DNA of 38,622 nucleotides from Rhodothermales bacterium. GTDB lineage: Bacteria; Bacteroidota; Rhodothermia; Rhodothermales; Bin80. Every line of letters begins with the position of its first letter. The first letter of the stretch is position 1. This document shows positions 6,593 through 25,626 of the stretch, in pieces. The position numbers and the translations under genes are program-made. The notes beneath the pieces were generated by a model. That model made no database searches. It had not been told where the DNA came from and saw nothing but the letters and a program-made list of their open reading frames with translations. The stretch lies in contig JAJECE010000111.1 of the NCBI GenBank assembly GCA_022822185.1, positions 1-38,622 on the forward strand, in the 5' to 3' direction.

Positions 6593-7047
6593 TTGTGCTG
6601 GCCCATCTATCGCAAATAGACAGATGGACATATATCACCTACCCGTTCCGTTCCTTTCGGGAGACCGTACAGGCAGGAGACTTCACGCCAAAAGATGCCT
6701 GTGGGCAATTTAATGTCTGGGGAAACGAGGTTTTTGCAAAACGAATAATCCAGGCTAAAAAGCACTCCTGAGTGCACTCAGGTGAGCAAAAACCTTCAAG
6801 ATTGAGAGTTCTGCAAGATGCCCCCTTATCCGTGATTACTCCGCATGGAACGTGTGCTGACAAACCGTACGACCATCTGCGATCCGCGTGTTCAAATCTC
6901 TGATATTGTGTTCTCCGGAAAATTCGTGCACAGATCTGTCCAGGTGCTTTCATTTTCATACATCATTCGTTATCCCTATCCCAATGCAAAGTTGTCCGCA
7001 TGATTGCAAAAATCAGCGGCATATTGCCATTTACAAAACAAAAATCT
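6593..7047. other. Gene-free spacer with a 16-bp perfect palindrome
   Basis: No credible gene lies between the DUF5916 gene and the first 2OG-oxygenase gene. The spacer holds a perfect palindrome, CCTGAGTGCACTCAGG, at 6767-6782, and shortly after the DUF5916 stop an inverted repeat CCATCT...AGATGG (about 6603-6627). Neither is followed by a T-run, so they are not clear terminators; the palindrome could be an operator. Confidence 0.5.
6767..6782. repeat. 16-bp perfect palindrome CCTGAGTGCACTCAGG
   Basis: The sequence equals its own reverse complement over 16 bases. It lies about 290 bases before the first 2OG-oxygenase start. Dyad symmetry of this length suits a dimeric repressor site or a cruciform; there is no T-tract for a terminator. 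Role unknown. Confidence 0.5.
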
Positions 7048-7074: not shown

Positions 7075-9462
7075 ATGGCAAACCAAGACATTACCCCTGA
7101 ACAGGCAAACAAGCAGCGCCTCATTAAACTGCTTGAATCCGTTGATCGTCCGGGAAATTACTGCGTAGGGGGAAGCCTGCCGGTCTTCATGCCGCAAATC
7201 ATCCTTGAGAATGTGGGCACCCTCTCATTTCCCGTACCCCAGGTACAGATTGACACACTGGTTGAGATGGCGGAGCAAGCCCCCTACGGCAAAGGAACCA
7301 AGACGCTCACCGATACGTCCGTACGTGACTGCTGGCAGATTGATGCCAGTCAGATTCGTGTAACCGGCAAAGCCTGGGCAGATTCGTTCAAGGAAATCAC
7401 GAACCTCGTGAGCGAAGGTTTGGGGCTTAACCAAGGACAGTTCGGTGCCAAACTATACAAGCTTCTTGTCTATAAGGAGGGCGGATTCTTTGCCGCCCAC
7501 CGGGATACGGAGAAAGTTCCAGGGATGGTTGCAACCCTGTCCCTATCGTTGCCAACTCCTGGAGAAGGCGGGGAACTCTCTATTCGCCACGGAGATCAGG
7601 AAACCGTCTTCAACATGAATGCAGAGGAACCATCCGAGCTTTCGTATGCTGCATTTTATGCGGATTGCCTCCATGAGGCCCGACCGGTGACGAAAGGCCA
7701 TCGCATCTCTCTCATCTACAACCTGTTTGTTCAATCCGGCGAACAGTGGAGTAGTGCACCCGATTATAGTGAATTGGTAGGGAAGGTCAAGGAATGTCTG
7801 GCAGACTGGGTGGACAGTGGTACAACCGAGAAAATCGTTTGGGTACTTGATCACTCCTACAGCGAAGATGGACTCTCGTTTGGCACCTTGAAGGGTACTG
7901 ACGCGGCGGTGGCACAAGTTCTGGCAGAGGCCGCCGGTCAGGTAGACTGTGATATGCACGCTGCTATACTGCACATTCAAGAGACGGGCGATCCAGAAAT
8001 AGATTATGATGGCAGTTACTGGGGAGATACCACCGTTGGCTCGACCATTGAAGAACTGCATGACCGTACAGAGCATCTGGAAAACTGGGTCGCACATGAT
8101 GACAGCCGCCCACCCTTCGGCAATATTTCCGTCCGTGAGGGAGAACTTATTCCGATAGACTCAACGGATGACCTGGACCCTGACGAGGAACGGATAGAAG
8201 GATACATGGGCAACGCCGGCCCGACACTGGAACTCATCTACCGGCTAGGGTCGCTTGTCGTGTGGCCCAAGTCAAACACCCTGAATATTGTGGCGCGTGG
8301 GGGCCTCCGGCACGCCGTGTCCTGGGTGGCGACCCAATGCGATAAGGCGAGCGGCACCGAAATGCAGCGCATGCTGTCTAAACTGACAGACATGTGGCCG
8401 GAAAGCCGCAGTTTCTATAACGACCATAACCGGCCCGTAATGCTGCAGATTCTAGGCACAAACGGCAATGCTGACCTGGCGGCAGATTTTCTCAATCAAA
8501 CCGTGCTGATCCACTACGATGGCAGTGAAAATGAGCAACTCGCCAAGCTCATGCCCGTGGTCGGCCCTGAGTCCGCCGAAGAGTTTTTGCCAAAATTGAT
8601 AGAACAGTATCTGATCAAGTATCCGAAAGAGGTGCTATCTCTACTCGCACGGATCACAGAGACTTTGGGGCAGGCGGAACCGGTCTGGCACAAAATGATG
8701 CAGGGGCCGGCAAAACTTGCCCTCTCATCAGTTCGCCCGTTACTGGAAAATGTTACAGAAATCGTCACCAGAGTGCACTACGATGATGTTCGGAGGAACA
8801 ATGAGTGCGGCATTTCGAAAGCCTATAATGATAACCCGCTTGATTCTACTATAATCCGCAGCATTTTCTCGCTCACCTGGCACCTGAATCTGACACAGGA
8901 ATCTGTTGAAACGGCAGCGACAATTGCAAACTTCCCGAAGGCAGCCACACCAGATCGCATGGTACCCGAGGCGCTGGCAGATCTTTCCAAGATTGAACGA
9001 GTTCGCAGTACCGAGGCCTACAGGTTACTCTGGAGGCAATCTGTTGATTTCCTGCTCCAGCGCAGCAGTGCTCCCCCTGAAGCCCCGGTCAACTGGATCA
9101 TTGATGCTGACATTCCCTGCACCTGCGAACTCTGTACTGATCTGCAGGAATTTTGTCTGAACCCTGATCGCCGCACCAAAAGCTTCAAGGTCGCCAAGGC
9201 ATCCCGTCGGATTATCCACAAGACGATTCAAGTGCTTGGCCTGAACATGGATCATGTCACCGAGCGTAAGGGAAGCCCCTACACCCTGCACTGCACCAAG
9301 AACCGAGACGGTCACAAACACAGGCTTATTGAGTACTCCGAAGATGTAAAGCATATTGAACGTCTGTTGACACTGACTCCTGAGAATGCAACAGGAAACG
9401 CAGAGGTACGACGGATAAAGCGCCTTGAAGCCGCCAAGAGGACGTTTCAGAACAGCCGGTAA
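7075..9462 (+). CDS. 2-oxoglutarate/Fe(II) oxygenase-like protein with long C-terminal Cys-cluster region, copy 1
   Basis: A 795-residue protein. I start it at 7075, where MANQ aligns with the start of the paralogue at 9660; the earlier in-frame ATG at 7000 has no counterpart. Residues about 100-225 form a prolyl-4-hydroxylase-like double-stranded beta-helix: KLYKLLVY...GGFFAAHRD gives metal ligands His142 and Asp144, GELSIRH follows, then HEARPVTKGHRISLIYNL with His200 as the third ligand and Arg210 for 2-oxoglutarate. All expected active-site residues are present, so activity is likely. The middle (about 230-660) is probably helical and unrecognised. Near the end is a C-T-C-x-x-C cluster (Cys682, 684, 687; also Cys694), then an Arg/Lys-rich segment and TERKGSPYTLHCTK. 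From memory, large fungal oxygenase-like proteins have a similar tail; unverified. The substrate is unknown. No signal peptide, so cytoplasmic. It stands beside immune-type genes, but a defence role is only inference. Confidence 0.8.
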   Translation: MANQDITPEQANKQRLIKLLESVDRPGNYCVGGSLPVFMPQIILENVGTLSFPVPQVQIDTLVEMAEQAPYGKGTKTLTDTSVRDCWQIDASQIRVTGKAWADSFKEITNLVSEGLGLNQGQFGAKLYKLLVYKEGGFFAAHRDTEKVPGMVATLSLSLPTPGEGGELSIRHGDQETVFNMNAEEPSELSYAAFYADCLHEARPVTKGHRISLIYNLFVQSGEQWSSAPDYSELVGKVKECLADWVDSGTTEKIVWVLDHSYSEDGLSFGTLKGTDAAVAQVLAEAAGQVDCDMHAAILHIQETGDPEIDYDGSYWGDTTVGSTIEELHDRTEHLENWVAHDDSRPPFGNISVREGELIPIDSTDDLDPDEERIEGYMGNAGPTLELIYRLGSLVVWPKSNTLNIVARGGLRHAVSWVATQCDKASGTEMQRMLSKLTDMWPESRSFYNDHNRPVMLQILGTNGNADLAADFLNQTVLIHYDGSENEQLAKLMPVVGPESAEEFLPKLIEQYLIKYPKEVLSLLARITETLGQAEPVWHKMMQGPAKLALSSVRPLLENVTEIVTRVHYDDVRRNNECGISKAYNDNPLDSTIIRSIFSLTWHLNLTQESVETAATIANFPKAATPDRMVPEALADLSKIERVRSTEAYRLLWRQSVDFLLQRSSAPPEAPVNWIIDADIPCTCELCTDLQEFCLNPDRRTKSFKVAKASRRIIHKTIQVLGLNMDHVTERKGSPYTLHCTKNRDGHKHRLIEYSEDVKHIERLLTLTPENATGNAEVRRIKRLEAAKRTFQNSR

Positions 9463-9570
9463 AACATGGATCCCCCCGTCTCCAAATCGTATCCTGACAA
9501 TTGAGCCGTGTCCAGAAACAATCTCACGCCAAAAAGCAACTGGAGAATCATAGCTTTCACAATGAGAAAG

Positions 9571-9603
9571 TCCACCTGTCCTGAGGCGGATACAGCAGGT
9601 GGA
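9571..9603 (+). repeat. 8-bp inverted repeat between the two oxygenase genes
   Basis: TCCACCTG at 9571-9578 and CAGGTGGA at 9596-9603 are perfect reverse complements with a 17-base loop. It lies 57 bases before the second gene's ATG and about 110 bases after the first gene's stop. No T-run follows, so a regulatory hairpin or operator is as likely as a terminator. Confidence 0.45.
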
Positions 9604-9659
9604 GAACCTGAGATGCAGGATTGTATTTACCGTTTTATTCGGTTCCAGACATAACCATT

Positions 9660-12050
9660 ATGGCAAGCCAAAAGACTCATTCTGAACAGATAAACAAACA
9701 CCGCCTCATTGAACTGCTCAGGTCTATTGACCGTCCGGGAGATTACTGTGCAGGAGGGACGCTGCAGGTGCCGATGCCGCAGATCAGTCTCAAAAATGTG
9801 GAACCCCTCTCATTTCCTGTGCCAAAGACGCAAATCGACGCACTGATTGAGATTGCGGAACGCGCCCCCTATGGTAAAGGGACCAAAACACTCACCGATA
9901 CATCCGTGCGTGACTGCTGGCAGATTGACGCGCGAAAAATCCGAATAACCGGCAAAGCATGGGCGAATTCTTTCAAGAAGATCATGAACCTCGTGAGTGA
10001 TGGCTTAGGGCTTCAACAGGCACAACTTGATGCAAAACTATACAAACTCCTCGTCTACACGGAGGGGGGATTCTTCGCAGCCCACCGGGATACAGAGAAA
10101 GTGCGGGGAATGGTGGCAACCCTCTCTCTGTCGCTGCCAACTTCCGGAGAAGGCGGGGAACTCTCCATTCGCCACGCAGGGAAAGAAACCGTCTTCAACA
10201 TGAATGCCCAGGAGCCATCCGAGTTATCGTATGCTGCATTTTATGCGGACTGCCTTCACGAAGTCCAGCCGGTGACAAAAGGCCACCGCATCTCACTTGT
10301 ATACAATCTGTTCATACGATCCGGCAAAAAATGGACCGGGGCACCTGACTATACAGACTTAACCGATAAGGTGAGGGAATGTCTGGTAGATTGGATCGAC
10401 AGCGGTGAGACCGAAAAAATCGTCTGGATGCTTGATCACTCATACAGCGAAGGAGGCCTCTCGTTTAATACGTTAAAAGGCACCGACGCAGCGGTTGCAC
10501 AGGTTCTGGGAGAGGCGGCCGACCATACAGGCTGTGATATGCACGCCGCCGTGCTATACATTCAGGAAACGGGCGAACCTGATCTAGATTATGATCCCGA
10601 CGATTGGGGAAAAGTCATAATTACTTCAACCTTTGCGCACTTCATTGAACGTGATGAATATCTGGAAAACTGGATCGCCCGTGATGGAAGCCGTCCGCCT
10701 TTCGGAGAACTTTCAATCCAGGAGGAAGAACTGCTTCCTACTGCTTCAATTGACGGATTAGAACCTGACGAGGAACTGCTGGAAGAATACATGGGCAACT
10801 ACGGTCCAACCCTAGACCTCATCTACCGCGTCGCCGCCCTTGTTGTATGGCCCAGAACGAAAACCATCAAAATTGTGTCAAGTGCTGAATTCGGAAATGC
10901 AGTGTCCTGGGTAGCAACACAGTCGAACCAGATCAGTGATGCCGCAATGCGATGCCTGCTAGTTCAGTTGGCAGAACTGTGGCCAGAAGATCAAGACAGA
11001 CATAACAATGATCATCGATCAACTGTGCTTGGACTCTTGAGTACCGCCGGTAATGTGGGCATGGCCACGGACTTTCTTGATCGGGTGATACAAGTCCGCT
11101 ACAACGGCAGCGAGAACGAGCACCTCGCCGACCTCATGCCCCTGATCGGTCCTGATACCGCTAAGGAATTCTTGCTGCACTTGATCGAACAGCACATGCT
11201 GACACATCCCACAGGGATTCTGTCCTTACTTGCAATGATTACAGAAAAACTGGCGCAGCATGAACTGGTATGGTACAATATGATGCGAGAAACCGTGCAA
11301 TCCATTATGTCGCAGCTTCCCACAGTGCTGAAGAAGATTACCGAAACCGTCAGCAGAATGCCCCAAAACGATGGCCATGGGAAGAATGAGTGTATTACCT
11401 GGGGGCCTGATTGCGAAAATCCCCTTGATTCTACGGCAATCCATAATCTTTTTGCACTCACCTGGCATCTGGATCTCCCACAGGAGTTTCTGGAAGCGGC
11501 AACGACGATTGCCGACTTCCCAAAGGCCGCTACACCAGACCGTATACTCCCCGAAGCTCTGGCAGACCTGTACAAGATTGAACAAATCCGCAGTACCGAG
11601 ACCTACAAGCTACTCTGGAGGCAGTCCGTTGACTTCCTGCTCCAGCGTAGCAGTAGTGCTCCCGCCGAAAAACCCAGTGACTGGATCATTGCTGTTGATG
11701 TTCCCTGCACTTGCGAACCCTGCACGGAACTGCAGGCATTTTGCCTGAACCCCAGTAGACGTACAAAAACCTTCAGGATTGAGGATGCCGCGCGTCAGCG
11801 TATCCAGGAAGCGATTGACGGGCTTGGTCTGGACATCAGCTACGTAACTGTGCGCAAGGGCCACCCCCACGCACTGAGATGCACGAAGACACTGAAGGGA
11901 CACAAGCGCAGACTAGTCCAATACTCCGAGGATATCAATTATATTGAGCGCCTGCTGACACTGGTGCCAAAGGACGAGGCAAAAAATGCGGAGGCAGATC
12001 GGATAAAGCGCCTTGAGGCAGCCAAGGCGGCGTTTCCAGACAACCGGTAG
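9660..12050 (+). CDS. 2-oxoglutarate/Fe(II) oxygenase-like protein with long C-terminal Cys-cluster region, copy 2
   Basis: A 796-residue tandem paralogue of the preceding gene, nearly gap-free against it; 39 of the first 60 residues are identical. I start it at 9660 (MASQ) by alignment with copy 1, instead of the in-frame ATG at 9621. The catalytic set is kept at the same positions: His142-Arg-Asp144, His200 in HEVQPVTKGHR, Arg210. The C-terminal cluster is Cys683, 685 and 688, followed by VRKGHPHALRCTK. Identity stays high along the whole length, including the unrecognised middle, so both domains are probably under selection in both copies. The divergence shows an old duplication, not an assembly artefact. 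Two intact catalytic copies suggest different substrates or a heteromeric enzyme. It ends with TAG, which shows that TAG is a normal stop in this genome. Confidence 0.8.
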   Translation: MASQKTHSEQINKHRLIELLRSIDRPGDYCAGGTLQVPMPQISLKNVEPLSFPVPKTQIDALIEIAERAPYGKGTKTLTDTSVRDCWQIDARKIRITGKAWANSFKKIMNLVSDGLGLQQAQLDAKLYKLLVYTEGGFFAAHRDTEKVRGMVATLSLSLPTSGEGGELSIRHAGKETVFNMNAQEPSELSYAAFYADCLHEVQPVTKGHRISLVYNLFIRSGKKWTGAPDYTDLTDKVRECLVDWIDSGETEKIVWMLDHSYSEGGLSFNTLKGTDAAVAQVLGEAADHTGCDMHAAVLYIQETGEPDLDYDPDDWGKVIITSTFAHFIERDEYLENWIARDGSRPPFGELSIQEEELLPTASIDGLEPDEELLEEYMGNYGPTLDLIYRVAALVVWPRTKTIKIVSSAEFGNAVSWVATQSNQISDAAMRCLLVQLAELWPEDQDRHNNDHRSTVLGLLSTAGNVGMATDFLDRVIQVRYNGSENEHLADLMPLIGPDTAKEFLLHLIEQHMLTHPTGILSLLAMITEKLAQHELVWYNMMRETVQSIMSQLPTVLKKITETVSRMPQNDGHGKNECITWGPDCENPLDSTAIHNLFALTWHLDLPQEFLEAATTIADFPKAATPDRILPEALADLYKIEQIRSTETYKLLWRQSVDFLLQRSSSAPAEKPSDWIIAVDVPCTCEPCTELQAFCLNPSRRTKTFRIEDAARQRIQEAIDGLGLDISYVTVRKGHPHALRCTKTLKGHKRRLVQYSEDINYIERLLTLVPKDEAKNAEADRIKRLEAAKAAFPDNR

Positions 12051-12908: not shown

Positions 12909-13742
12909 TTAATTGACTTGGGATGAGTTCCGTTGGCGTAATCTGTACATTCCCCGAAGAATCAAGACCATAATCTGAGTCATAAAAGGGGTGCTGGCCA
13001 ATAGTTTGTTCTCCTCAGCCGTCAAGCCATTATTCAAATCTTCTCCAGTCCACTGCTTGAACTCACAACGACCGGACCAACCGCCGTTGCGTGACAGATC
13101 GTCCCATGGTTTGTCTATACCAAGCGTCTCTGCTATATCACGGGTACATCCGCCAAACCCGCCGATCAAGAATAATGGTTGTCCTGTACGAAGGGATATC
13201 ATTGCTTCTTCGGCCACACCCGGCATACGCCCCTTAAAGTTTTCTACCTGACCGCCAAGAAGCACTCGTGCGTCAGTCAATGAACTCTGGAGTTCGCGCA
13301 TTGCGGTCAGTCCAGAGATCCACTCGTCCTGGGTTGGAGCATGTGTTGATAGATTGCGCCGAGTCTCTAAGGTCAGAGGAGTCCCATCACAATCAAGGAG
13401 CACCACCTCACCTGTGCCTTGGAGATCATCAATGAGTGCATCAATCTGATCTACAGGGGTTCCGATATGAACAGGCCATGCTAAATGATTAGTGATTCTC
13501 ACTGGATTCTTTTTTAAGTCAGCAGAGGATGTATACCTCAAAACTAGGCTAAAGAGAAGTTTTGAGAATCCCCAGGTACGTAGATCCCCGCCATAGGCAA
13601 GGTTGATATCAATCGCAAGAAGTTGAATTGCTAACTCAGCTGTAGCCTCCTTGAGATGTCCTTCACCCAAACCTAAAAACCGCATATCAGGACTATCTGA
13701 CGTTGAAACTGCAACCGTTATGGGAGATTTAACCGAATTCAT
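12909..13742 (-). CDS. Stand-alone SLOG-domain protein of a TIR operon
   Basis: A 277-residue cytoplasmic protein consisting essentially of a SLOG (Rossmann-like nucleotide-ligand sensor) domain. Visible signatures: VAVSTSDSPDMRFLGLG at the first strand and loop; L-A-Y-G-G-D-L-R-T-W-G-F at 49-59; the L-G-G...G-R-M-P-G-V-x-E-E-A stretch at 162-180; and F-L-I-G-G-F-G-G at 191-198. SLOG domains are known as sensors of nucleotide-derived signals; in Thoeris ThsA the SLOG domain binds the TIR-made cyclic ADP-ribose isomer. Its start overlaps the stop of the upstream TIR gene by four bases (ATGA), so the two are translationally coupled. I infer that it senses a product of one of the flanking TIR proteins, or processes it. 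No fused SIR2, transmembrane or nuclease domain is present, so the effector must be another protein. Confidence 0.75.
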   Translation of the reverse strand: MNSVKSPITVAVSTSDSPDMRFLGLGEGHLKEATAELAIQLLAIDINLAYGGDLRTWGFSKLLFSLVLRYTSSADLKKNPVRITNHLAWPVHIGTPVDQIDALIDDLQGTGEVVLLDCDGTPLTLETRRNLSTHAPTQDEWISGLTAMRELQSSLTDARVLLGGQVENFKGRMPGVAEEAMISLRTGQPLFLIGGFGGCTRDIAETLGIDKPWDDLSRNGGWSGRCEFKQWTGEDLNNGLTAEENKLLASTPFMTQIMVLILRGMYRLRQRNSSQVN

Positions 13743-14932
13743 ATCATATCCTCAGCTAACCATTGAGAGATCGTTCGAACTTGAAGACCATCCCAGGTCT
13801 CATTAAACAGATTCATCTCCTCCTTACCGAGGGGAGGATCAGGGTAGATTACATTCCCCTGCATTTTATGTTCCCCCGCAGTAGCCACTACGGAAAGAAG
13901 TTCCGGTGGACGAGACATGAAAAATGTATCTGCTGGATGCTCCGGCAATACGGCAATACGGCAGCGCCAGAGAAAATCTAGAAGCACCTCATCTATCAGC
14001 CGGCTGGCAATTTGAGGAAAAAGACTTTTCGCAGCAGGATCCATACGAATGACCGGAACATTACCGAGATATGGGAAAGATCGTTCATCCCCTGAACGAA
14101 GACAATCCACAACAATCATGGGAACCCCCATCCGTTTTGCCTCAATAACCTCCGTGCGGCACCATTGACTGGAGGAATAATTATCCGTGTGAATTGCAAG
14201 AAAGATGGATTTCCCGATATGATGGTAAATGACATCAAGAAATTTTGTACCTGCAGGAATGTCATAGATGTCAAGAAAACTGGATAAGGCACTGTTATCT
14301 TGGAGCCAACTTCGCATTGCCTTCGCGATTTCCTCTCCATCTTGGTCACGCTTCGTATGGCTAAGAAAAATATGTATTTTTTCAAGATGTTGCTCAAGCC
14401 CAGTTTCTTCCTGTCCTGGATGGTTGAGCATGTACAGGTACAGTCGTAACATCCGGGCAAATTCATATCCAAGTTCACTAATAAATCGCTGCTCACGTAC
14501 CTCTCCCGCCGAATCCCACTTGTCCCAGCGGAGAAACTGTTGCTCCAACTTTAAATCGTCCAGAATGCCCGGCTCCATGGCAACCGGGAGCAGACTGGTG
14601 CCGAGACCTTGTACGGATACTTTTGTACTTAAGTCATGGATGTATTCAACCCATTTAGTATCCTGCACGAGACTACCATCAATCATTGCTACAATAATAA
14701 TGGGACATTCGGCTTGCCAATTCACATGCAGAGGAACGGGAGAGCCAAGATTGTCCGCTCTCTGGAAAGTTACCTCAATACCGGCTTGACCGGTAAGGTC
14801 GAGAAAGCCACCCATGTCGAAATGATCTTGAATCTGCTGTGCTATACGAGTTCCCTCATCAAAGTCGGGATGCCACACAACATAGACCAGTAACGAGGGA
14901 GATAGTATATATTCCATCAGTAATTTGGACAT
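13739..14932 (-). CDS. Double TIR-type protein, first gene of the TIR/SLOG operon
   Basis: A 397-residue soluble protein. Residues 186-296 form a clear TIR domain: IHIFLSHTKRD on the first strand, F-L-D-I-Y-D-I-P-A-G-T at the BB-loop region, FLAIHTDNYSSSQWCRTEV with Glu261 in the W-C-R-T-E context of catalytic TIR NADases, then PMIVVD. Residues about 13-135 look like a second, divergent TIR-like fold (LLVYVVWHPDFDEG, later PIIIVAMIDGS), without an obvious catalytic Glu. About 100 residues after the second TIR match nothing I know. It is the promoter-proximal gene and overlaps the SLOG gene by four bases. It could be the NAD+-consuming effector or a signal-producing enzyme; the other TIR gene in the operon is nonsense-mutated, so this may be the only active TIR here. 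Confidence 0.8.
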   Translation of the reverse strand: MSKLLMEYILSPSLLVYVVWHPDFDEGTRIAQQIQDHFDMGGFLDLTGQAGIEVTFQRADNLGSPVPLHVNWQAECPIIIVAMIDGSLVQDTKWVEYIHDLSTKVSVQGLGTSLLPVAMEPGILDDLKLEQQFLRWDKWDSAGEVREQRFISELGYEFARMLRLYLYMLNHPGQEETGLEQHLEKIHIFLSHTKRDQDGEEIAKAMRSWLQDNSALSSFLDIYDIPAGTKFLDVIYHHIGKSIFLAIHTDNYSSSQWCRTEVIEAKRMGVPMIVVDCLRSGDERSFPYLGNVPVIRMDPAAKSLFPQIASRLIDEVLLDFLWRCRIAVLPEHPADTFFMSRPPELLSVVATAGEHKMQGNVIYPDPPLGKEEMNLFNETWDGLQVRTISQWLAEDMI

Positions 14933-18807: not shown

Positions 18808-19566
18808 TTACGGTCCTGTTGCCATACCTCGCTTCCTTGCTTTATAATTGTCATGGTTGGACAGATACTTGGTGTGTCTCCTTATGACTTCGGCCGATAA
18901 ATTATCAAAGTGGCACTCCACCAGAATTTCTGCTGTGTGCGGATAGACCTTTGACAGATCGCTGATCACCCAGCCGATTCCCGTCTGAATGAATCTCTCC
19001 CGCTCTTTGACCAAAACAACGATGGTTGACTTGATCAGGGGATGGTATGTCTCATCCTGAACCACCGCCCTGAAGGGCACAATTGACGCACGTCGATTCC
19101 ATAAATTAGATTCTCTGCACCAACCGGCAATACGTTCGGCAACTTCCGGACCATGGCGAACGATTGCCGGTCCGAGCACGCGCACACAAAACCAGTCTGT
19201 GGTAGACCAATCAACAAATGCGCCGCAAGAGAATAGATCTTCAACTTCCGTCAACAAGTTATCTGCTTCCACCCGTTTCTGTAGATATTTCTGAATGTAC
19301 AGCGTACCCGCAAACTTGTCTTCGGCATGTTCCTGTCTGATCAATGATACTGCAAGATCTAACTCTTCTTCTCCCGATAGTTGCTGCAGTCCGTGAAACT
19401 TCCTCCATTCAGCCACAATTCTGGCAACCTCGGGGGTCTTGATACCGCGATAACGAATGGCATGCTTCAGATAGTTCTCAAACCACCTCTTGGTATGCAT
19501 ATCCGCCGCATCATCCAGCCGTCTCTGCAAATCGTAGATCAACTCGGATATACCGGAATTACTCAT
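18808..19566 (-). CDS. AlkD-like DNA alkylation repair glycosylase
   Basis: A 252-residue all-helical HEAT-like repeat protein matching DNA alkylation repair (AlkC/AlkD) enzymes, which excise N3- and N7-alkylated purines without base flipping. The AlkD active-site pattern is present: W120-S-T-T-D124 (AlkD Trp109/Asp113), W156-N-R-R in the LWNRRASIV helix, and Trp199 in GIGWVISDLSK (AlkD Trp187). The start ATG at 19566 overlaps the last codons of a degenerate CBM9 copy (GAATATGAGTAA), so its transcription and translation may come from that copy's duplicated leader. The gene was apparently joined to the duplicated segment by recombination. Besides repair, bacterial AlkD relatives occur near genes producing or resisting DNA-alkylating agents, but none is seen here. 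Confidence 0.8.
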   Translation of the reverse strand: MSNSGISELIYDLQRRLDDAADMHTKRWFENYLKHAIRYRGIKTPEVARIVAEWRKFHGLQQLSGEEELDLAVSLIRQEHAEDKFAGTLYIQKYLQKRVEADNLLTEVEDLFSCGAFVDWSTTDWFCVRVLGPAIVRHGPEVAERIAGWCRESNLWNRRASIVPFRAVVQDETYHPLIKSTIVVLVKERERFIQTGIGWVISDLSKVYPHTAEILVECHFDNLSAEVIRRHTKYLSNHDNYKARKRGMATGP

Positions 19567-19935
19567 ATTCCCGCAAATACGATGCTTTGTTCTCGTTCCT
19601 TCGGGCCTCTACATCATTTACATTATCGCTCACCCAAGCTCCAAAATACAAATATTCCGAATCCCACACAGCATCATAGCGGGTCTGGAACTCATTGCCA
19701 TGATCAGCAAGCCGGTTCCGCCGGCCATCATCGTACCAGAACATGTGACAAAGACGGGAGATATCCCAGACACCGTCTGTGAACGCAAAATCCTTCGCTC
19801 GGATAATTGCCCATCTATTTCGGGGACTATTTGCAGTTGGTGTCCCGGAAGTTTGCCAGTTTCTATTGAGCACTGGCCGGTTACAAAATACACCGAAACG
19901 ATCAGCCGAAAAAGACAAGCCATACACTTGACCAC
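19559..19935 (-). pseudogene. Decayed 5' copy of the CBM9-like gene
   Basis: This segment is homologous to the first ~135 codons of the intact gene at 17794-18639. It begins at GTG 19935 (the intact gene's ATG is GTG here) with a signal-like start. Near 19800 one base is missing compared with the intact gene (CTTTCCACTC there, CCTTCGCTC here), shifting the frame; the downstream part then reads DFAFTDGVWDISRL and W-D-S-E-Y-L-Y-F-G-A-W-V. A block coding for about six residues is also deleted. Homology stops at Y-L-R-E, exactly where the AlkD-like gene starts. Upstream, similarity continues to about 19975, including GTTAGCAGTTCT shared with 18668-18679. It is a truncated, frameshifted remnant. 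Confidence 0.85.
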
Positions 19936-20067
19936 GATTGAAGCAAAACCTGCTGGCCCCCAGAGTTAGCAGTTCTGACAATACTATGCACAGAATCTCT
20001 TTTGAATATCCAGAAACCAAGGATGATATACACCCGGCGGGAAGAAACACTCATTTCTGGCCCGACA

Positions 20068-20310
20068 TCAAGGAGGCCGTAACCGGCCCTGGACATCTGA
20101 ATTCGTCCCCACCAATATGTCTCTTCGTTCGCCGATAAATATTGAGCAAGTCTTATCATCGGGATTGAAATGAACCGGTCCTTGATTGACACTGAACATA
20201 TGCGAAACCCAACGCGCTGCTGGAGGGTATATATCCAGCCTATCCGTTTGTTTGGACTTTTTCGGAAGCATTCGTGATTTACATCCGAAGCAGATGATCG
20301 CAGCTGGCAA
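20068..20310 (-). CDS. Small uncertain ORF, 80 codons
   Basis: An 80-residue frame beginning MPAAIICFGCKSRM with a Cys-x-x-Cys pair and a basic stretch. I recognise no family. It occupies most of the spacer between the decayed CBM9 copy and the methyltransferase gene. An overlapping 140-codon frame on the same strand looks less protein-like. It may be a small real gene, a fragment, or chance. Confidence 0.25.
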   Translation of the reverse strand: MPAAIICFGCKSRMLPKKSKQTDRLDIYPPAARWVSHMFSVNQGPVHFNPDDKTCSIFIGERRDILVGTNSDVQGRLRPP

Positions 20311-20416
20311 AGTAAGAATTTCATGTTGATGTGGATGTGGATTTTACAGTTCCGGTTTGAGGCGATAGGTAGTGATCTGAGTTCCGCATCGAAAATAACC
20401 CGTTGGATTAAACGAA

Positions 20417-21526
20417 ATGTTGGTTGATAATCAATGGAGTGGACGTATCAGATCAGGGGAGATTGCGTCTTTGATCCGATGCGTTGACTTATTTTGCGGA
20501 GCAGGTGGGCTGACACATGGACTCGCCTCGGTGGGAATTAATGTCGGGCTTGGCATTGATATTGATCCGAGCTGCAAATATCCGTACACAGCAAACAATA
20601 ATGTCTCGTTTCTCTTAAAATCAGTTAAAGACACCACTTCTGCGGACATTTCTAAATTCTTTGATGACGCACCCTTAAGGATGTTAGCAGGATGTGCACC
20701 CTGTCAGCCATTTTCGTATTACAGCCGGGCACAGTCAAACTCGTCTGACCGGCGATGGCATCTCCTGGAACAGTTTTCGCGTCTCGTTCGGGAGACTACT
20801 CCCCATCTCGTTACCATGGAAAATGTTCCGCTACTGCAGCGTGAAGATGTATTTTCCAGTTTTCATACAGAACTTCGGCAGCAAGGATTTGATGTGATTT
20901 ATCGTGTGGTCAACTGTGCTGACTACGGAGTACCTCAACAGCGGAAAAGACTCATCCTGCTTGCTTCTCGTCTGGGTCCAATCAACCTGATTGCGCCAGA
21001 GACCCCGGAGGGATATCGTATTACCGTAAAAGATGCGATTGGCAATCTTGTTCCCCTGAAGGCGGGCGAACGCTGCAGTTCCGATTCAATGCATCAGGCC
21101 TGTGACCTCTCCCCTATTAATCTGCAGCGCATTCAGGCCTCAAAACCGGGTGGGAGCTGGCGGGACTGGGATGAGCATTTGATCGCCAAATGTCATCGCA
21201 AAAAATCTGGACGTACATATAGTAGTGTTTACGGCAGAATGGTGTGGGATAAGCCGTCACCTACGATGACAACACAGTTTTATGGATTTGGCAACGGCCG
21301 TTTTGGACACCCCGAACAGGACCGGGCAATTTCGCTGAGAGAAGGTGCAATCCTGCAGAGTTTTCCCGTAAATTACAAATTCGCTCCTGAAGACACATCT
21401 GTTTGTAAGAGAACCGTCGGCCGATTGATTGGTAATGCTGTTCCTGTCAAACTTGGGGCGGCGATTGGTAAAAGCATCGTCTCCCATGTCGAAAAATGGC
21501 TTGAATCAAAGGAGCGGATACTATGA
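20417..21526 (+). CDS. DNA (cytosine-5-)-methyltransferase
   Basis: A 369-residue C5-cytosine methyltransferase that transfers a methyl group from S-adenosylmethionine to cytosine in a specific DNA site. Motifs in order: I, DLFCGAGGL (24-32); IV, A-P-C-Q-P-F-S with catalytic Cys96; VI, M-E-N-V-P near 135; VIII, Q-Q-R-K-R-L near 174; IX/X, R-E-G-A-I-L-Q-S-F-P and G-N-A-V-P. The target-recognition region between VIII and IX is about 100 residues, a normal size for a single-site enzyme; the site cannot be predicted. It lies directly upstream of the GHKL-ATPase/nuclease gene on the same strand, so it most likely protects the host DNA from that nuclease. Its stop overlaps a 49-codon frame that fills the gap to the nuclease gene. 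Confidence 0.92.
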   Translation: MLVDNQWSGRIRSGEIASLIRCVDLFCGAGGLTHGLASVGINVGLGIDIDPSCKYPYTANNNVSFLLKSVKDTTSADISKFFDDAPLRMLAGCAPCQPFSYYSRAQSNSSDRRWHLLEQFSRLVRETTPHLVTMENVPLLQREDVFSSFHTELRQQGFDVIYRVVNCADYGVPQQRKRLILLASRLGPINLIAPETPEGYRITVKDAIGNLVPLKAGERCSSDSMHQACDLSPINLQRIQASKPGGSWRDWDEHLIAKCHRKKSGRTYSSVYGRMVWDKPSPTMTTQFYGFGNGRFGHPEQDRAISLREGAILQSFPVNYKFAPEDTSVCKRTVGRLIGNAVPVKLGAAIGKSIVSHVEKWLESKERIL

Positions 21527-21672
21527 AATTTCCCATGGCTCGTTATTTTCTTATGATGCTGTTGCCACTAACATTGCAATCCAAGGCTCTTTTGGGCTCC
21601 AGGAACATCGGTATTGGGCTTCAAAAGTATGATCAAAGCAGTGCCAATTTTGGATCAACGACAAAAACATAA
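21523..21672 (+). CDS. Small 49-codon ORF between the methyltransferase and nuclease genes
   Basis: An ATG overlaps the methyltransferase stop (ATGA) and opens a 49-residue frame (MKFPMARYFLMMLLPLTL...) that ends 12 bases before the nuclease gene. The spacing is that of an operon gene, but the N-terminal hydrophobic stretch has no known relative and another frame here (ISHGSLFSYDAVATNIAIQG) also looks protein-like. Either a small operon member or a remnant of a deleted gene. Confidence 0.3.
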   Translation: MKFPMARYFLMMLLPLTLQSKALLGSRNIGIGLQKYDQSSANFGSTTKT

Positions 21673-21684
21673 CCTTAAAGCTAT

Positions 21685-23679
21685 ATGAGTTCCCCAAAAT
21701 ACAGTGCCCCATCCCCGAGTACGGAGCAAGCCTTTGAAATGAGGGTGGGGTTGAATGTACTTGATCACCTAGGAATTAACCTGTACAGCAACATCGCTGC
21801 CGTTCTGACCGAGGTGATCGCCAATGCATGGGATGCGGATGCAAAAAATGTCACCATCCAGATTGATCATGGAGAAGACAGTCGTATTACGATGATTGAC
21901 GATGGAGTCGGTATGACGATTGACGACATCAACAACAAATATCTTCTGGTTGGGTATCGCCGACGTGATCAGGATATGAATAATGGGAAGCGCACGAAAA
22001 AGGGGCGAACGGTTATGGGGCGAAAAGGATTAGGGAAGCTTTCGCTATTCTCAATCGCAGATGTTATTGAAGTTCAGTCTGCAAAAGATGGGCAGTCTCA
22101 TGGGTTTCGGATGAGCGCTGTTAAAATTCGCGAAGCCGCAAGAAACCAGTCCCGGACCTATTATCCTGAATCCTTGAACAGAAACAAACTTGATATCAAT
22201 CAAGGCACCAAAATTGTCCTCAAAGAAATCAAACGTCAGCGATTAGGGCCTGGTGCAACAGCATTACGCAAGAGACTCGCAAGACGATTTTCCATTATTG
22301 GAGAGACGCACGATTTCAGGATTACGATCAATGAGAAACCGGTTACATATCATGACCGGGATGATCTCTCGAAAGTTCAGTTTCTTTGGATGCTGGGAGA
22401 GTCGGATATTGAATCTGGAGCCGCCCCCGGATTAATCAAGAAAGCAAACCTTCCAGGTCAACTTGATCACTGGGATAAGAACTGGAAAGTTCGTGGATGG
22501 ATCGGAACAGTCCAGAAACCGAAGCAACTTGACAACCCGGATGTTGGCAACCTCAATAGCATTGTGGTCTTTGCCCGTGGGCGTCTATTTCACGAGAACA
22601 TCCTGGATAAAGTCAATAATGGGAGGCTCTACACAAAATACCTGACAGGGCAAATTGAGGCGGATTTTCTTGACGATGACCATAATGCTGACATTGCCAC
22701 CAGTGATCGGCAGCGCATTCAGGAGGATGATCCACGCTACATCCAATTACTCAAGTTTCTCAAGTCAAGTCTACAGAAAATTGACGGACAGTGGAACGAA
22801 TTGCGTCACAAAATCGAACTGAAGCAAGTTAAGGAAACATTCCCTGCTCTGGATGCATGGTTCAAATCTCTGCCCGAAGGTTACAGGAATCAGGCAGAAA
22901 AACTAGTTGCGAAATTGAGTTCTCTTCCATTAGAGGAGGAAGATGATCGGAAACTTCTGTATAAACATGGAATCCTGGCATTTCAAAGAATGAAAGTTCG
23001 CGGGTCAACGAGGGAATTGGTCGATCACATCGGAGAACCAGATAAGCTTCTGCAAATTCTCTCGGATCGGGACGCATTTGAAGCCTCACTTTACAGAGAT
23101 ATCATCAGGTCACGTCTTGAAGTTATTGAGCAATTTCAATCTCTTATAGAGAATAACCAGAGAGAAAGACTACTCCAGAAGTTTCTATTTGATCATCTAT
23201 GGCTTCTTGATCCCGCATGGGAAAGGGCGACCTCCAGTGCTGTAATGGAATCACATCTAACCGAGGAAGGTGTGATCATTCAGGATATGACGGCAAAGGA
23301 GAAACTTGGCCGTGTTGACATAGCCTACCGCACAGATGCGGGAAAGCATATTATCGTTGAATTGAAGAGAGCCGAACGAAGGATAAAGCTCCTAGACCTA
23401 GTGGAACAGGGGCAAACCTATGTAGATAAGGTGAAGAAAATACAGCAAAATCAAGGGGATAATTCACCTAATATTGAAGTTATATTTGTTATCGGGAAAC
23501 CCTTGGACGAGGAAAGTAGTAATCCTGACCGTGTTAAAGCATCCATGGCCTCGGTGTCACCGGGCAGTCGTATTGTGCACTATGATTTCCTTATACGGAA
23601 TGCTCTGGAGGCCTATTCGGAGTACTTGGAGAAAAGTGCAGAGATCGACAAGATTGACAAGATTATTGATCAATTATAA
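21685..23679 (+). CDS. GHKL (MORC/MutL-like) ATPase fused to PD-(D/E)XK nuclease, restriction component
   Basis: A 664-residue cytoplasmic protein. N-terminal GHKL ATPase (about 15-400): E43-x3-N47-x2-D50-A (N box), DDGVGM at 72-77 (D-x-G-x-G), and G-R-K-G-L-G-K-L-S at 112-120 (lid/G box). The middle is helical. The C-terminal ~180 residues are a restriction-endonuclease-fold domain: D545 in G-R-V-D-I-A-Y and E559-L-K561 in I-V-E-L-K-R, followed by QGQTYVDKV. Aravind and colleagues described MutL/MORC-like ATPases of this kind in bacterial restriction-modification loci, and the upstream C5 methyltransferase fits that setting. The ATPase presumably clamps or moves on DNA and gates cleavage of unmodified sites. 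All catalytic residues are intact. The 3' end (K-I-D-K-I-I-D-Q-L) and the following spacer are AT-rich compared with neighbours, consistent with horizontal transfer. Confidence 0.85.
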   Translation: MSSPKYSAPSPSTEQAFEMRVGLNVLDHLGINLYSNIAAVLTEVIANAWDADAKNVTIQIDHGEDSRITMIDDGVGMTIDDINNKYLLVGYRRRDQDMNNGKRTKKGRTVMGRKGLGKLSLFSIADVIEVQSAKDGQSHGFRMSAVKIREAARNQSRTYYPESLNRNKLDINQGTKIVLKEIKRQRLGPGATALRKRLARRFSIIGETHDFRITINEKPVTYHDRDDLSKVQFLWMLGESDIESGAAPGLIKKANLPGQLDHWDKNWKVRGWIGTVQKPKQLDNPDVGNLNSIVVFARGRLFHENILDKVNNGRLYTKYLTGQIEADFLDDDHNADIATSDRQRIQEDDPRYIQLLKFLKSSLQKIDGQWNELRHKIELKQVKETFPALDAWFKSLPEGYRNQAEKLVAKLSSLPLEEEDDRKLLYKHGILAFQRMKVRGSTRELVDHIGEPDKLLQILSDRDAFEASLYRDIIRSRLEVIEQFQSLIENNQRERLLQKFLFDHLWLLDPAWERATSSAVMESHLTEEGVIIQDMTAKEKLGRVDIAYRTDAGKHIIVELKRAERRIKLLDLVEQGQTYVDKVKKIQQNQGDNSPNIEVIFVIGKPLDEESSNPDRVKASMASVSPGSRIVHYDFLIRNALEAYSEYLEKSAEIDKIDKIIDQL

Positions 23680-24031
23680 AAGTAGAAAATATCCTCTAAT
23701 TGAGTTCAATCTAATTGGACGATACCATTCAAAATTTTTCATTATCCTAAAACTATACCTCATACTGATTGAGGATGAGACCTGTGTGAGCCATATTTTT
23801 TTGAATCTATGATTGTCAAATGAATACGCCCTAGGGCGCGAAAAAGTTGTGTGACGAAGCCGGGAACCGTACTGACTCCACCGCACTTGAAATGATGTGG
23901 TCTCAAAATTTGCTTTCATGAATTATATACTCTCTTTCCAGACTAATACCGGGAAGCAGTTCATATACTGAATTAAAATCATTGAGATCGCTTGATTGAT
24001 GACGGGAGGACTTCTTACAGAGCCGGACTAG
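23680..24031. other. AT-rich spacer after the restriction gene
   Basis: No supportable gene in 352 bases. A perfect 12-base palindrome, CGCCCTAGGGCG, lies at 23827-23838. Frames on either strand lack motifs and ribosome sites. A GGGAGGA at 24003-24009 resembles a ribosome site but is too far from the ATG at 24032. Confidence 0.4.
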
Positions 24032-24499
24032 ATGGAGGTTTTGTCGCAAGTATATGTGAGGACACTTGCGGCTAAAGCAGGCTATCTGACTTCGGTGCCC
24101 GAACCTAATTGGGATAGCCTTGACCTAAGACTCCAGGCCGGAGGTGATTATCGTCCTGCCCTTGACCTGCAACTGAAGGCCACAACAACATTCCCGGAAA
24201 ATCCAGAAAGCATTCTTTCTTTTCAGTTGTCAATAAAGAATTACCGTGAACTCCAGATCGAGACATAGACACCCCGACTTCTCGTGATTCTGGCGCTGCC
24301 AAAGGAGAGGGAGCAGTGGATATCGCTCACTGAGCAAGAACTTGTGCTCCGCCGCCGAGCCTATTGGCTTAGTCTGCAGCAGAGCTACAATGAAATCATC
24401 GACCAAGAAACCGTTACGGTTCACATTCCGTTACAAAACGTGCTGAATATTGAGACTCTGCAAGATCTAATGGAAAAATCCAGAAAAGGGGAACTCTAA
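24032..24499 (+). pseudogene. DUF4365 gene interrupted by one in-frame TAG
   Basis: One continuous frame of 155 sense-or-stop positions with a single TAG at codon 79 (24266-24268). The first part reads LSQVYVRTLAAKAGY, then D-S-L-D-L and P-A-L-D-L-Q-L-K-A-T, the DUF4365 start with a D...D-x-Q-x-K pattern like a PD-(D/E)XK nuclease core. The second part continues without gap: TPRLLVILALPKEREQW, L-R-R-R-A-Y-W-L-S-L and T-V-T-V-H-I-P, the standard DUF4365 C-terminal half. Codons on both sides of the stop are clean, so the mutation is recent or a sequencing error; reinitiation at GTG 24284 would give only the C-terminal half. The stop codon overlaps the next gene's ATG by one base (TAATG), so the pair is a translationally coupled module. 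DUF4365 is of unproven function, often placed near defence genes. Confidence 0.8.
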
Positions 24500-25626
24500 T
24501 GAACATTAATCTTTACGACCGAAATACATTGCTAGATGTGTCACCAACCGCCCTTTCCGCCTACGCACGCACCGCTGGCTGGGAAAAGCATGGCACATAC
24601 CGGACACACTCGGACATCTATGTTGGCGAGGATCTGCCGGAAATCATCATCCCTCGGACAGAACACTTGGGAGGCTACGCAAGTGTAGTGGCAAGGTTAA
24701 TCAAAAGTTTTGCCCGTGCCGGGCATCAGGAAGAAACCAGCGTCTATCGCTCGCTCGTGACGACAGACCGTGATGCCATCCGCCTCCGTGTCGGAGAGAG
24801 TGAAGAGGGTAGCGTAAAACTGAATAGAGGAGTGAACTTAATCCAGGGAGCCCGTGATATGCTCCTGGCAATTGCATGCTCTCTGGATAAATCTAAGGGA
24901 GTCTACCGGGTCGGACCTAAAGCGACAGAGATAGTATCCGGATTCCGTTTGGGGCAGACCGACAGAGGGTGTTTTGTGGTAACAATCCTAACAACAGTAA
25001 TCCCGCCCCCGATTCCGTCATTATTTCCTGATCAACCAGACCCGGACGCACCTGTTGAACGTCGGCTAACTACCCGCTTGATGGAAGCTTTGACAGTTGT
25101 GCGTACAGCTGCCGAACAGACTGCCTCCGGAGATGAAGATGCTTTCCGTGACGCGACGAAGAGTGGTGTAAGTGCAAACCTGTGTGAAGCTCTGGATAAA
25201 ATTCTCAGTTCTTTCTCAACCCTGGATGTAAGTGTATCTTGGGCTCAGATTCGACCGAATACACGACCGAATCGAACCATACGATTTGGCGTTAAGGATG
25301 CACCTTTATTACAGCATGTGGCCCAAATATTCCGAGAGCATGCTCCACAGCCTGATATTGAGTTGTCTGGGCATGTCCAGTTACTGAAACGCCGAGAAAA
25401 CGAAGAAGATGGAACGATCCGTCTGAATACTTTCGTTGACGAAAAACAGCATTTAGTTACAGCATTGCTGGAGCGTCAGGATTATGAACAGGCCGTCCAG
25501 GCTCACAGGGATAAAGCAATGGTTGTACTTTCTGGTGACCTTGAACGCACGGGACAACGGTGGAGGCTGTGGAATCCAAGCCTAAAACGTGTACTCTCGC
25601 AAGAGGAAGCTGACCTCGACAATTAG
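24499..25626 (+). CDS. Unrecognised 375-residue partner of the DUF4365 protein
   Basis: I do not recognise a family. The protein is soluble, without signal peptide or membrane segment. A central Pro-rich joint (VIPPPIPSLFPDQPDPDAP, about 170-188) divides an N-terminal alpha/beta half, with I-I-I-P-R-T-E-H-L-G-G-Y near 50, from a helical C-terminal half. It ends QEEADLDN with TAG. Its ATG overlaps the stop of the DUF4365 gene, so synthesis depends on translation through that gene; the in-frame TAG there could reduce its expression by polarity. The tight pairing suggests it works with the DUF4365 protein, for example as regulator, sensor or inhibitor of a nuclease-like partner. No catalytic motif is evident. 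Confidence 0.65.
   Translation: MNINLYDRNTLLDVSPTALSAYARTAGWEKHGTYRTHSDIYVGEDLPEIIIPRTEHLGGYASVVARLIKSFARAGHQEETSVYRSLVTTDRDAIRLRVGESEEGSVKLNRGVNLIQGARDMLLAIACSLDKSKGVYRVGPKATEIVSGFRLGQTDRGCFVVTILTTVIPPPIPSLFPDQPDPDAPVERRLTTRLMEALTVVRTAAEQTASGDEDAFRDATKSGVSANLCEALDKILSSFSTLDVSVSWAQIRPNTRPNRTIRFGVKDAPLLQHVAQIFREHAPQPDIELSGHVQLLKRRENEEDGTIRLNTFVDEKQHLVTALLERQDYEQAVQAHRDKAMVVLSGDLERTGQRWRLWNPSLKRVLSQEEADLDN

Follow-up and report, generated by a model that had tools for sequence, protein, structure and literature searches.

PHD-type protein hydroxylation underlies oxygen sensing in animals and the modification of ribosomes and of EF-Tu. To our knowledge, few bacterial members of this type have known substrates. 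The PPHD of Pseudomonas putida hydroxylates Pro54 of EF-Tu and uses an HxD...H motif (PMC6235002), and OGFOD1 acts on the ribosomal protein uS12 (PMC4396695). The R3H domain consists of a three-stranded antiparallel sheet with helices at the N-terminal side and between strands 1 and 2, and its R-x3-H motif lies in helix 2 (PMC7708074).

Two tandem genes of a Rhodothermales bacterium are predicted here to encode a PHD-type oxygenase joined to a fixed alpha/beta domain, a helical solenoid and a tail with a Cys knuckle and an R3H-like domain. For the family to which they belong, the sole annotation is '2OG-Fe(II) oxygenase'; its single parts are of known kinds, and the combination was not found in the literature searched.

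The gene pair

The window analysed is the whole stretch of 38,622 nucleotides of contig JAJECE010000111.1, from an assembly of 3.7 Mb in 132 contigs. The nearest named relatives of this genome are Rhodothermales MAGs, which we infer from bin names and gene content to be sponge-associated. The two reading frames (Table 1) lie head-to-tail and are similar across their full length; 2OG-FeII_Oxy_3 (PF13640) was the sole Pfam family above its cut-off (27 bits) in either of them. The tandem paralogous 2OG/Fe(II) oxygenases of about 795 residues that the initial annotation had read from the DNA are thus borne out.

The sister species G297 carries the same pair at 97%. Between the orthologues of these two species dN/dS was 0.15 and 0.20 for the oxygenase copies; the Gfo/Idh gene next to them gave 0.05 and the nearby TIR gene 0.25. 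These values indicate that both copies are under purifying selection and are kept. In the tree, copies A and B were mutual nearest relatives (support 98), and therefore the duplication took place within the genus. A duplication specific to this lineage produced the tandem genes, and selection has maintained both. A second, independent side-by-side pair of family members was observed in a Verrucomicrobiae genome, with reading frames of 694 and 953 aa.

Table 1. Positions of the oxygenase features, neighbouring genes and partner genes (window positions unless a locus is named)
Feature	Position	Strand	Basis
2OG oxygenase paralogue A, 795 aa	7075..9462	+	ORF and translation; Pfam 2OG-FeII_Oxy_3 38.6 bits
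A: catalytic double-stranded beta-helix, PHD/PPHD type (residues 25-220)	7147..7734	+	AF2 model and fold search
A: H142-x-D144, iron ligands	7498..7506	+	invariant in 66 homologues
A: H200 (iron) to R210 (2OG carboxylate)	7672..7704	+	H in 100%, R in 98% of 66 homologues
A: alpha/beta middle domain (residues 230-400), conserved H260-x-Y262, LK..D276, GN380xG	7762..8274	+	model; retained in the 399-aa stand-alone viral-contig protein
A: helical solenoid (residues 400-664)	8272..9066	+	model; weak hits on designed helical repeats in the profile search
A: CxCxxC cluster (C682, C684, C687)	9118..9135	+	kept in 95-97% of 66 homologues; lost from several members of the same genus
A: R3H-like domain (residues ~685-742), R711-x3-H715	9127..9300	+	model pLDDT 95.6; VIA rows; sub-threshold Pfam R3H
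2OG oxygenase paralogue B, 796 aa	9660..12050	+	ORF and translation; Pfam 38.9 bits; 63% identity to A
B: H142-x-D144, H200, R210 active-site residues	10083..10289	+	translation and alignment
B: CxCxxC cluster (CTCEPC)	11706..11723	+	translation and alignment; R3H-motif Arg kept, His replaced by Gln
Imperfect 13-nt palindrome 5' of gene 1	6762..6787		
8-nt pair 5' of gene 2	9571..9603		
SLOG and TIR genes	12909..14932	-	
AlkD-type, C5 methyltransferase, ATPase restriction enzyme and PDC-M02B genes	18808..25626		
Full-length paralogue of G270 (contig 35), 799 aa	L028:8761-11157		
Side-by-side pair in a Verrucomicrobiae genome	L067:6504-12331		
Alphaproteobacterial 217-241 aa partner	L011:10861-11565; L097:12305-12994; L101:12326-13048; L109:12307-13002; L112:12284-12934		
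Acidobacteriota 207-294 aa partner	L076:12337-13218; L080:12403-13278; L069:2528-3148; L071:11205-11843; L094:3034-3905		

The catalytic domain

A full-length AlphaFold (AF2) model was built with 66 sequences and had a mean pLDDT of 90. The complete H-x-D...H...R active site noted earlier is present in both copies: H142, D144 and H200 were found in all 66 homologues, and R210 in 65 of them. In the structure searches (Foldseek/VIA), the best match of the double-stranded beta-helix (residues 25-220) was P. putida PPHD-EF-Tu (4iw3; Z 14.3, rmsd 4.7, 177 aligned), followed by PiuC (Z 13.8) and PHD2 (Z 13.4), whereas AlkB ranked lower (11.6). PiuC is not a prolyl hydroxylase, and its score is tied within 1 of that of PPHD. 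The model favours a PHD-like catalytic fold, the kind that hydroxylates proteins. The window protein resembles Pseudomonas PPHD (an EF-Tu prolyl 4-hydroxylase) and PHD2/EGLN1 in the fold of this region, the HxD...H ligands and the 2OG Arg; however, the PPHD and PHD2 chains are catalytic units of about 200-230 aa that have no middle domain, solenoid or R3H-like tail, and they share only 13-17% identity with it.

AlkB enzymes have an R-x-N-x-T-x-R signature after the distal His. This signature was absent from the copy A sequence HEARPVTKGHRISLIYNLF. In PADLOC-DB only the CRISPR-associated generic '2OG' models matched (best E 4.8e-11), none of them beyond the generic 2OG domain.

In one full-length paralogue of the same genus (G270; Table 1) the frame is open but the iron ligands, H-x-D and the distal H, have been lost, so catalysis appears dispensable in some members. 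Judging from its sequence, some members of the family may work solely through binding, or may be decaying. This inactive paralogue adjoins a BnzA-like defence gene.

The middle domain and the solenoid

The middle and the C-terminal part had been described as unassigned. By sequence search this still holds, whereas by structure the model resolves an alpha/beta domain, a solenoid and an R3H-like domain. The PDB sequence search with copy A gave 0 matches; that with the family profile gave mostly designed helical repeats and was uninformative for the C-terminus.

The middle domain (residues 230-400) has strongly conserved residues of its own (H260, Y262, K273, D276 and N380). The oxygenase and middle domain also occur without the rest, as a unit of about 400 aa. 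The example is a protein of 399 aa on a phage-like contig (L113), which was the one family match among viral contigs; deposited phages in the phage collection gave none. Beside this protein on the contig (IMGVR_UViG_3300017766_005490), genes for a RecT-like protein, a YqaJ-type nuclease and a serine recombinase were recognized by eye. In one relative the reading frame stops early, at 337 aa, within the oxygenase-plus-middle unit.

Giant-virus proteins gave the best structural matches in BFVD, matching the first ~400 residues by fold over 400-450 alignment columns. The matches among Fe2OG proteins of Terrestrivirus, Yasminevirus, Orpheovirus and Tupanvirus (388-535 aa) suggest an oxygenase and a middle domain; however, these proteins are too short to hold both the solenoid and the tail, and the long alignments have high rmsd. 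Giant viruses probably carry the oxygenase-plus-middle unit, the shared middle domain being deduced from predicted folds.

OGFOD1/Tpa1p, the ribosomal uS12 prolyl 3-hydroxylases, are similar in that an N-terminal catalytic domain is followed by a non-catalytic one, and OGFOD1 was the second-best Foldseek match (4nhy). The second domain of OGFOD1 is a double-stranded beta-helix of about 270 aa, whereas residues 230-400 of the window protein have only about 5 strands. Homology to OGFOD1 over the whole length was rejected, as the long Foldseek alignment had no superposition (rmsd 23 A).

The C-terminal tail

Both copies contain the C-T-C-x-x-C cluster (CTCELC in A, CTCEPC in B) followed by a basic segment (TERKGSP and TVRKGHP, R-K-G-x-P), in agreement with the first reading of the DNA. 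The cluster is lost in some close relatives, and therefore zinc binding, itself presumed from the Cys pattern, would not be essential in all members. R711 (66 of 66) and K742 are invariant; H715 is found in 37 of the 66 homologues (56%), including copy A, and is Gln in copy B.

Folded alone, the tail reached a pLDDT of 95.6. The predicted order is alpha-beta-alpha-beta-beta (helix 61-71, strand 77-81, helix 84-97, strands 101-106 and 113-118 of the tail model), with the R-x3-H motif in helix 2 and a three-stranded antiparallel sheet, which is the R3H topology. VIA matches of the tail included 7zw0 (Z 7.4), 2lrr (Z 7.1), 1ug8 (6.5), 1msz (6.5) and 3gku (6.3). The R3H structures in this list (FAP1, 7.4; Smubp-2, 7.1; PARN, 6.5; the Jag-like 3gku, 6.3; SPAG7, 5.7) covered the same ~60 residues; the similarly arranged ribosomal S8, TusA and ALBA were also in the list, and Z values of 6-7.4 are in a range possible for a merely common arrangement. 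By eye, Smubp-2 and the tail share the R-x-x-x-H, eight residues ending in G-L, a G plus an aromatic residue, hydrophobic strand residues and a K.

Pfam R3H (PF01424) was the sole Pfam match of the tail of A, at 12.7 bits (E 0.14) and below the gathering score of 26.8. It was also the commonest weak Pfam match of the family tails, seen in 4 of the 66 with a best E of 0.014, and in a search of the window genome with the R3H model the tail of A was one of only two weak matches. A profile-profile comparison with nine Jag R3H sequences and two PDB segments placed the R..H in register, though not above shuffled columns. Since the sequence signal is sub-threshold and the profile comparison is no better than shuffles, the tail is called R3H-like and is not counted as an R3H member. 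Among the 296 genomes of the window's phylum no R3H gene was found at E 1e-4; in this phylum the tail was clearly found only on the family oxygenase or as a broken fragment.

The tail is similar to the R3H proteins Smubp-2, PARN, FAP1/NFX1 and Jag/KhpB in topology and, in copy A, in the R-x3-H of helix 2. It differs from them in its score below the Pfam cut-off, a longer turn between strands 2 and 3 (T-x-R-x-G-x-P), the CxCxxC in front and the fusion to an oxygenase. The modelled tail is probably a CxCxxC knuckle, presumably for zinc, with an R3H-like, putative nucleic-acid-binding fold. No metabolic family matched the C-terminus in the sequence and structure searches.

Distribution and transfer of the family

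The profile search of one species-level genome collection confirmed at least 570 loci of the family. The 80 loci fetched from these belong to Pseudomonadota, Acidobacteriota, Verrucomicrobiota, Bacteroidota, Nitrospirota and others; in the window's own phylum the family is rare (7 of 296 genomes). Family members are also found on plasmids of Bradyrhizobium, Microvirga, Acidiphilium, Thiodictyon and Streptomyces, and 12 of 23 were predicted to be conjugative. The tree required 11 changes of phylum label against a minimum of 3, a count that paralogy and MAG binning can inflate. Taken with the plasmid copies, these changes make transfer the likely reading, and by phylogeny and replicon the gene likely travels as accessory cargo among bacterial phyla and on plasmids.

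Genomic neighbourhood

In the window's genus, a block of Gfo/Idh, sugar hydrolase, CBM9, sulfatase, DUF7133 and transporter genes is largely conserved. The stretch that adjoins Gfo/Idh has almost no content in G207 and G278 and contains restriction-modification genes in G270; synteny breaks at this point in the window and in G297, where the oxygenase pair is present with the SLOG and TIR genes. The oxygenase homologues of G167, G215, G246 and G270 are located at other sites, and type I restriction genes flank the G246 copy. This variable interval, together with the homologues at other sites, indicates that the pair is island cargo in this genus.

The pair adjoins immune-type genes, as had been pointed out: the SLOG and TIR genes lie 0.9 kb past it and face the opposite way. 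The SLOG (LD_cluster2) gene overlaps the end of the TIR gene, and the TIR protein weakly matches Thoeris ThsB and ThcB4. From these matches, the two genes may form a Thoeris-like two-gene system. Further along the window are genes for an AlkD-type DNA-alkylation repair protein, a C5 methyltransferase, a BbrUII/HgiDII-type ATPase restriction enzyme and the candidate defence protein PDC-M02B; the last three interrupt a gene block that is contiguous in the related genome G167.

Across ~90 loci the nearest genes are diverse, including PIN toxins, methylases and genes for carbohydrate, tRNA-modification and biosynthesis functions; no recurrent iron or biosynthetic neighbour was found, which agrees with the earlier remark that no metabolic partner was obvious, and the homologues were not consistently in housekeeping contexts. 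The PADLOC share was similarly modest in the nearest genes (148) and in genes 5-6 positions away (131), these counts being approximate as families are listed rather than proteins. A specific adjacency to defence genes was therefore rejected, and the survey gave no repeated association with TIR/SLOG or restriction genes of the kind once suggested. The family mostly stands alone, and its link to immunity is only circumstantial.

TOTE stands for TPR, OB, TBP, Effector (PMC12458937). TOTE-type AEP primase-helicase(-DUF559 nuclease) genes were found within 10 kb at 7 of the ~90 homologue loci (L092, L068, L074, L048, L069, L080 and L016), adjacent in about 5. These loci are on distant branches in Actinomycetota, Verrucomicrobiota, Pseudomonadota and Acidobacteriota. 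The TOTE domain occurs in 23 of the 296 genomes of the window's phylum (~8%); fewer than 0.4 such neighbours are expected even at one copy per genome. No PF22548 (TOTE-type) match was found in the window's genome. The association is treated as a lead because it was noticed post hoc and defence genes cluster.

Possible functions

The pair had been proposed to modify a protein, a nucleic acid or a small signal. Protein and nucleic acid are both plausible, with structure favouring protein; the specific link to TIR/SLOG was not upheld. Each gene may encode a stand-alone PHD/PPHD-type Fe(II)/2OG protein hydroxylase that is targeted by its tail and solenoid to a nucleic-acid-bound or ribosomal protein and is carried as mobile accessory cargo, here as a duplicated pair; this is advanced tentatively, with somewhat less than an even chance of being right. 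The tail and solenoid would position the enzyme at its target, a protein bound to nucleic acid or associated with the ribosome (compare PPHD/EF-Tu and OGFOD1/uS12), and the N-terminal domain would hydroxylate this protein with O2 and 2OG. The gene itself would be accessory cargo, located in the window's genus at variable sites with defence genes.

Some of the same features might also fit an enzyme that modifies nucleic acids, in which the R3H-like tail and the Zn knuckle would grip ssDNA or RNA and a base would be hydroxylated or demethylated, in defence or against it. The tail speaks for this, as do AlkB-DNA structures in the same match list (Z 11-11.6) and the excess of TOTE-type neighbours; however, the catalytic domain ranks nearer to protein prolyl hydroxylases and lacks the AlkB signature, and the TOTE link might reflect clustering in defence islands and has no counterpart in the window's genome. 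This explanation is considered unlikely.

An anti-phage component that works with the TIR/SLOG neighbours, such as one that modifies a signal or arms an effector, is more doubtful and is regarded as improbable. It would be consistent with the closeness of these genes, with the variable site beside the conserved Gfo/Idh block, and with the type I restriction genes and the BnzA gene next to other copies of the genus (G246 and the inactive paralogue of G270, respectively). However, a TIR/SLOG neighbour was seen among the loci examined only in the window and in the sister species, and on the opposite strand; the nearest neighbours are mostly unrelated, and the density of defence genes is similar farther away. 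The least probable explanation is an accessory metabolic or stress enzyme (a small-molecule hydroxylase or a PiuC-like iron-uptake factor), to which the PiuC structures and weak matches to the PiuC family PRK05467 (NCBIfam; 24-33 bits) point, but these matches are far under the equivalog cut-off of 143 bits, no iron or biosynthetic gene recurs nearby, and the conserved CxCxxC and R3H-like tail would be left unexplained.

Returning to protein hydroxylation, a broader and speculative extension, also judged improbable, is that mobile hydroxylases with R3H-like/zinc tails target translation or replication machinery bound to nucleic acids in phage and plasmid conflicts, sometimes beside TOTE effectors. 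If true, oxygen-dependent protein hydroxylation would be an immune or counter-immune step. Hundreds of bacterial genes, across phyla and on plasmids, combine a complete active site with a tail whose modelled fold is probably nucleic-acid-binding; a substrate identified for any one member would give a lead to what the family does and would test whether oxygen-dependent hydroxylation has a role in genome conflicts.

Upstream repeats and partner genes

An unusual inverted repeat had been reported before each gene. The first is an imperfect 13-nt palindrome within a 10-nt outer pair and the second is only an 8-nt pair, and their folding z-scores are weak (-1.75 and -2.06). The two are unrelated, and an element shared by both genes was therefore discarded.

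There is no universal operon partner among the family loci; lineage-specific partners exist. In alphaproteobacteria (rhizobia, Reyranella), a gene of 217-241 aa is located 43-46 bp downstream of the oxygenase and encodes a CxxC...CxxC ribbon and an FSRTRRRYERQGLL motif. It matched no Pfam family above threshold. Plasmids of Legionella, Nonomuraea and Halococcus carry relatives of it, and on such plasmids no copy of the oxygenase was found. In Acidobacteriota, an uncharacterised gene of 207-294 aa lies directly downstream of the oxygenase and contains the pattern FSTSTL...IVPWLA...SPPERDYFFQYSWVIPG.
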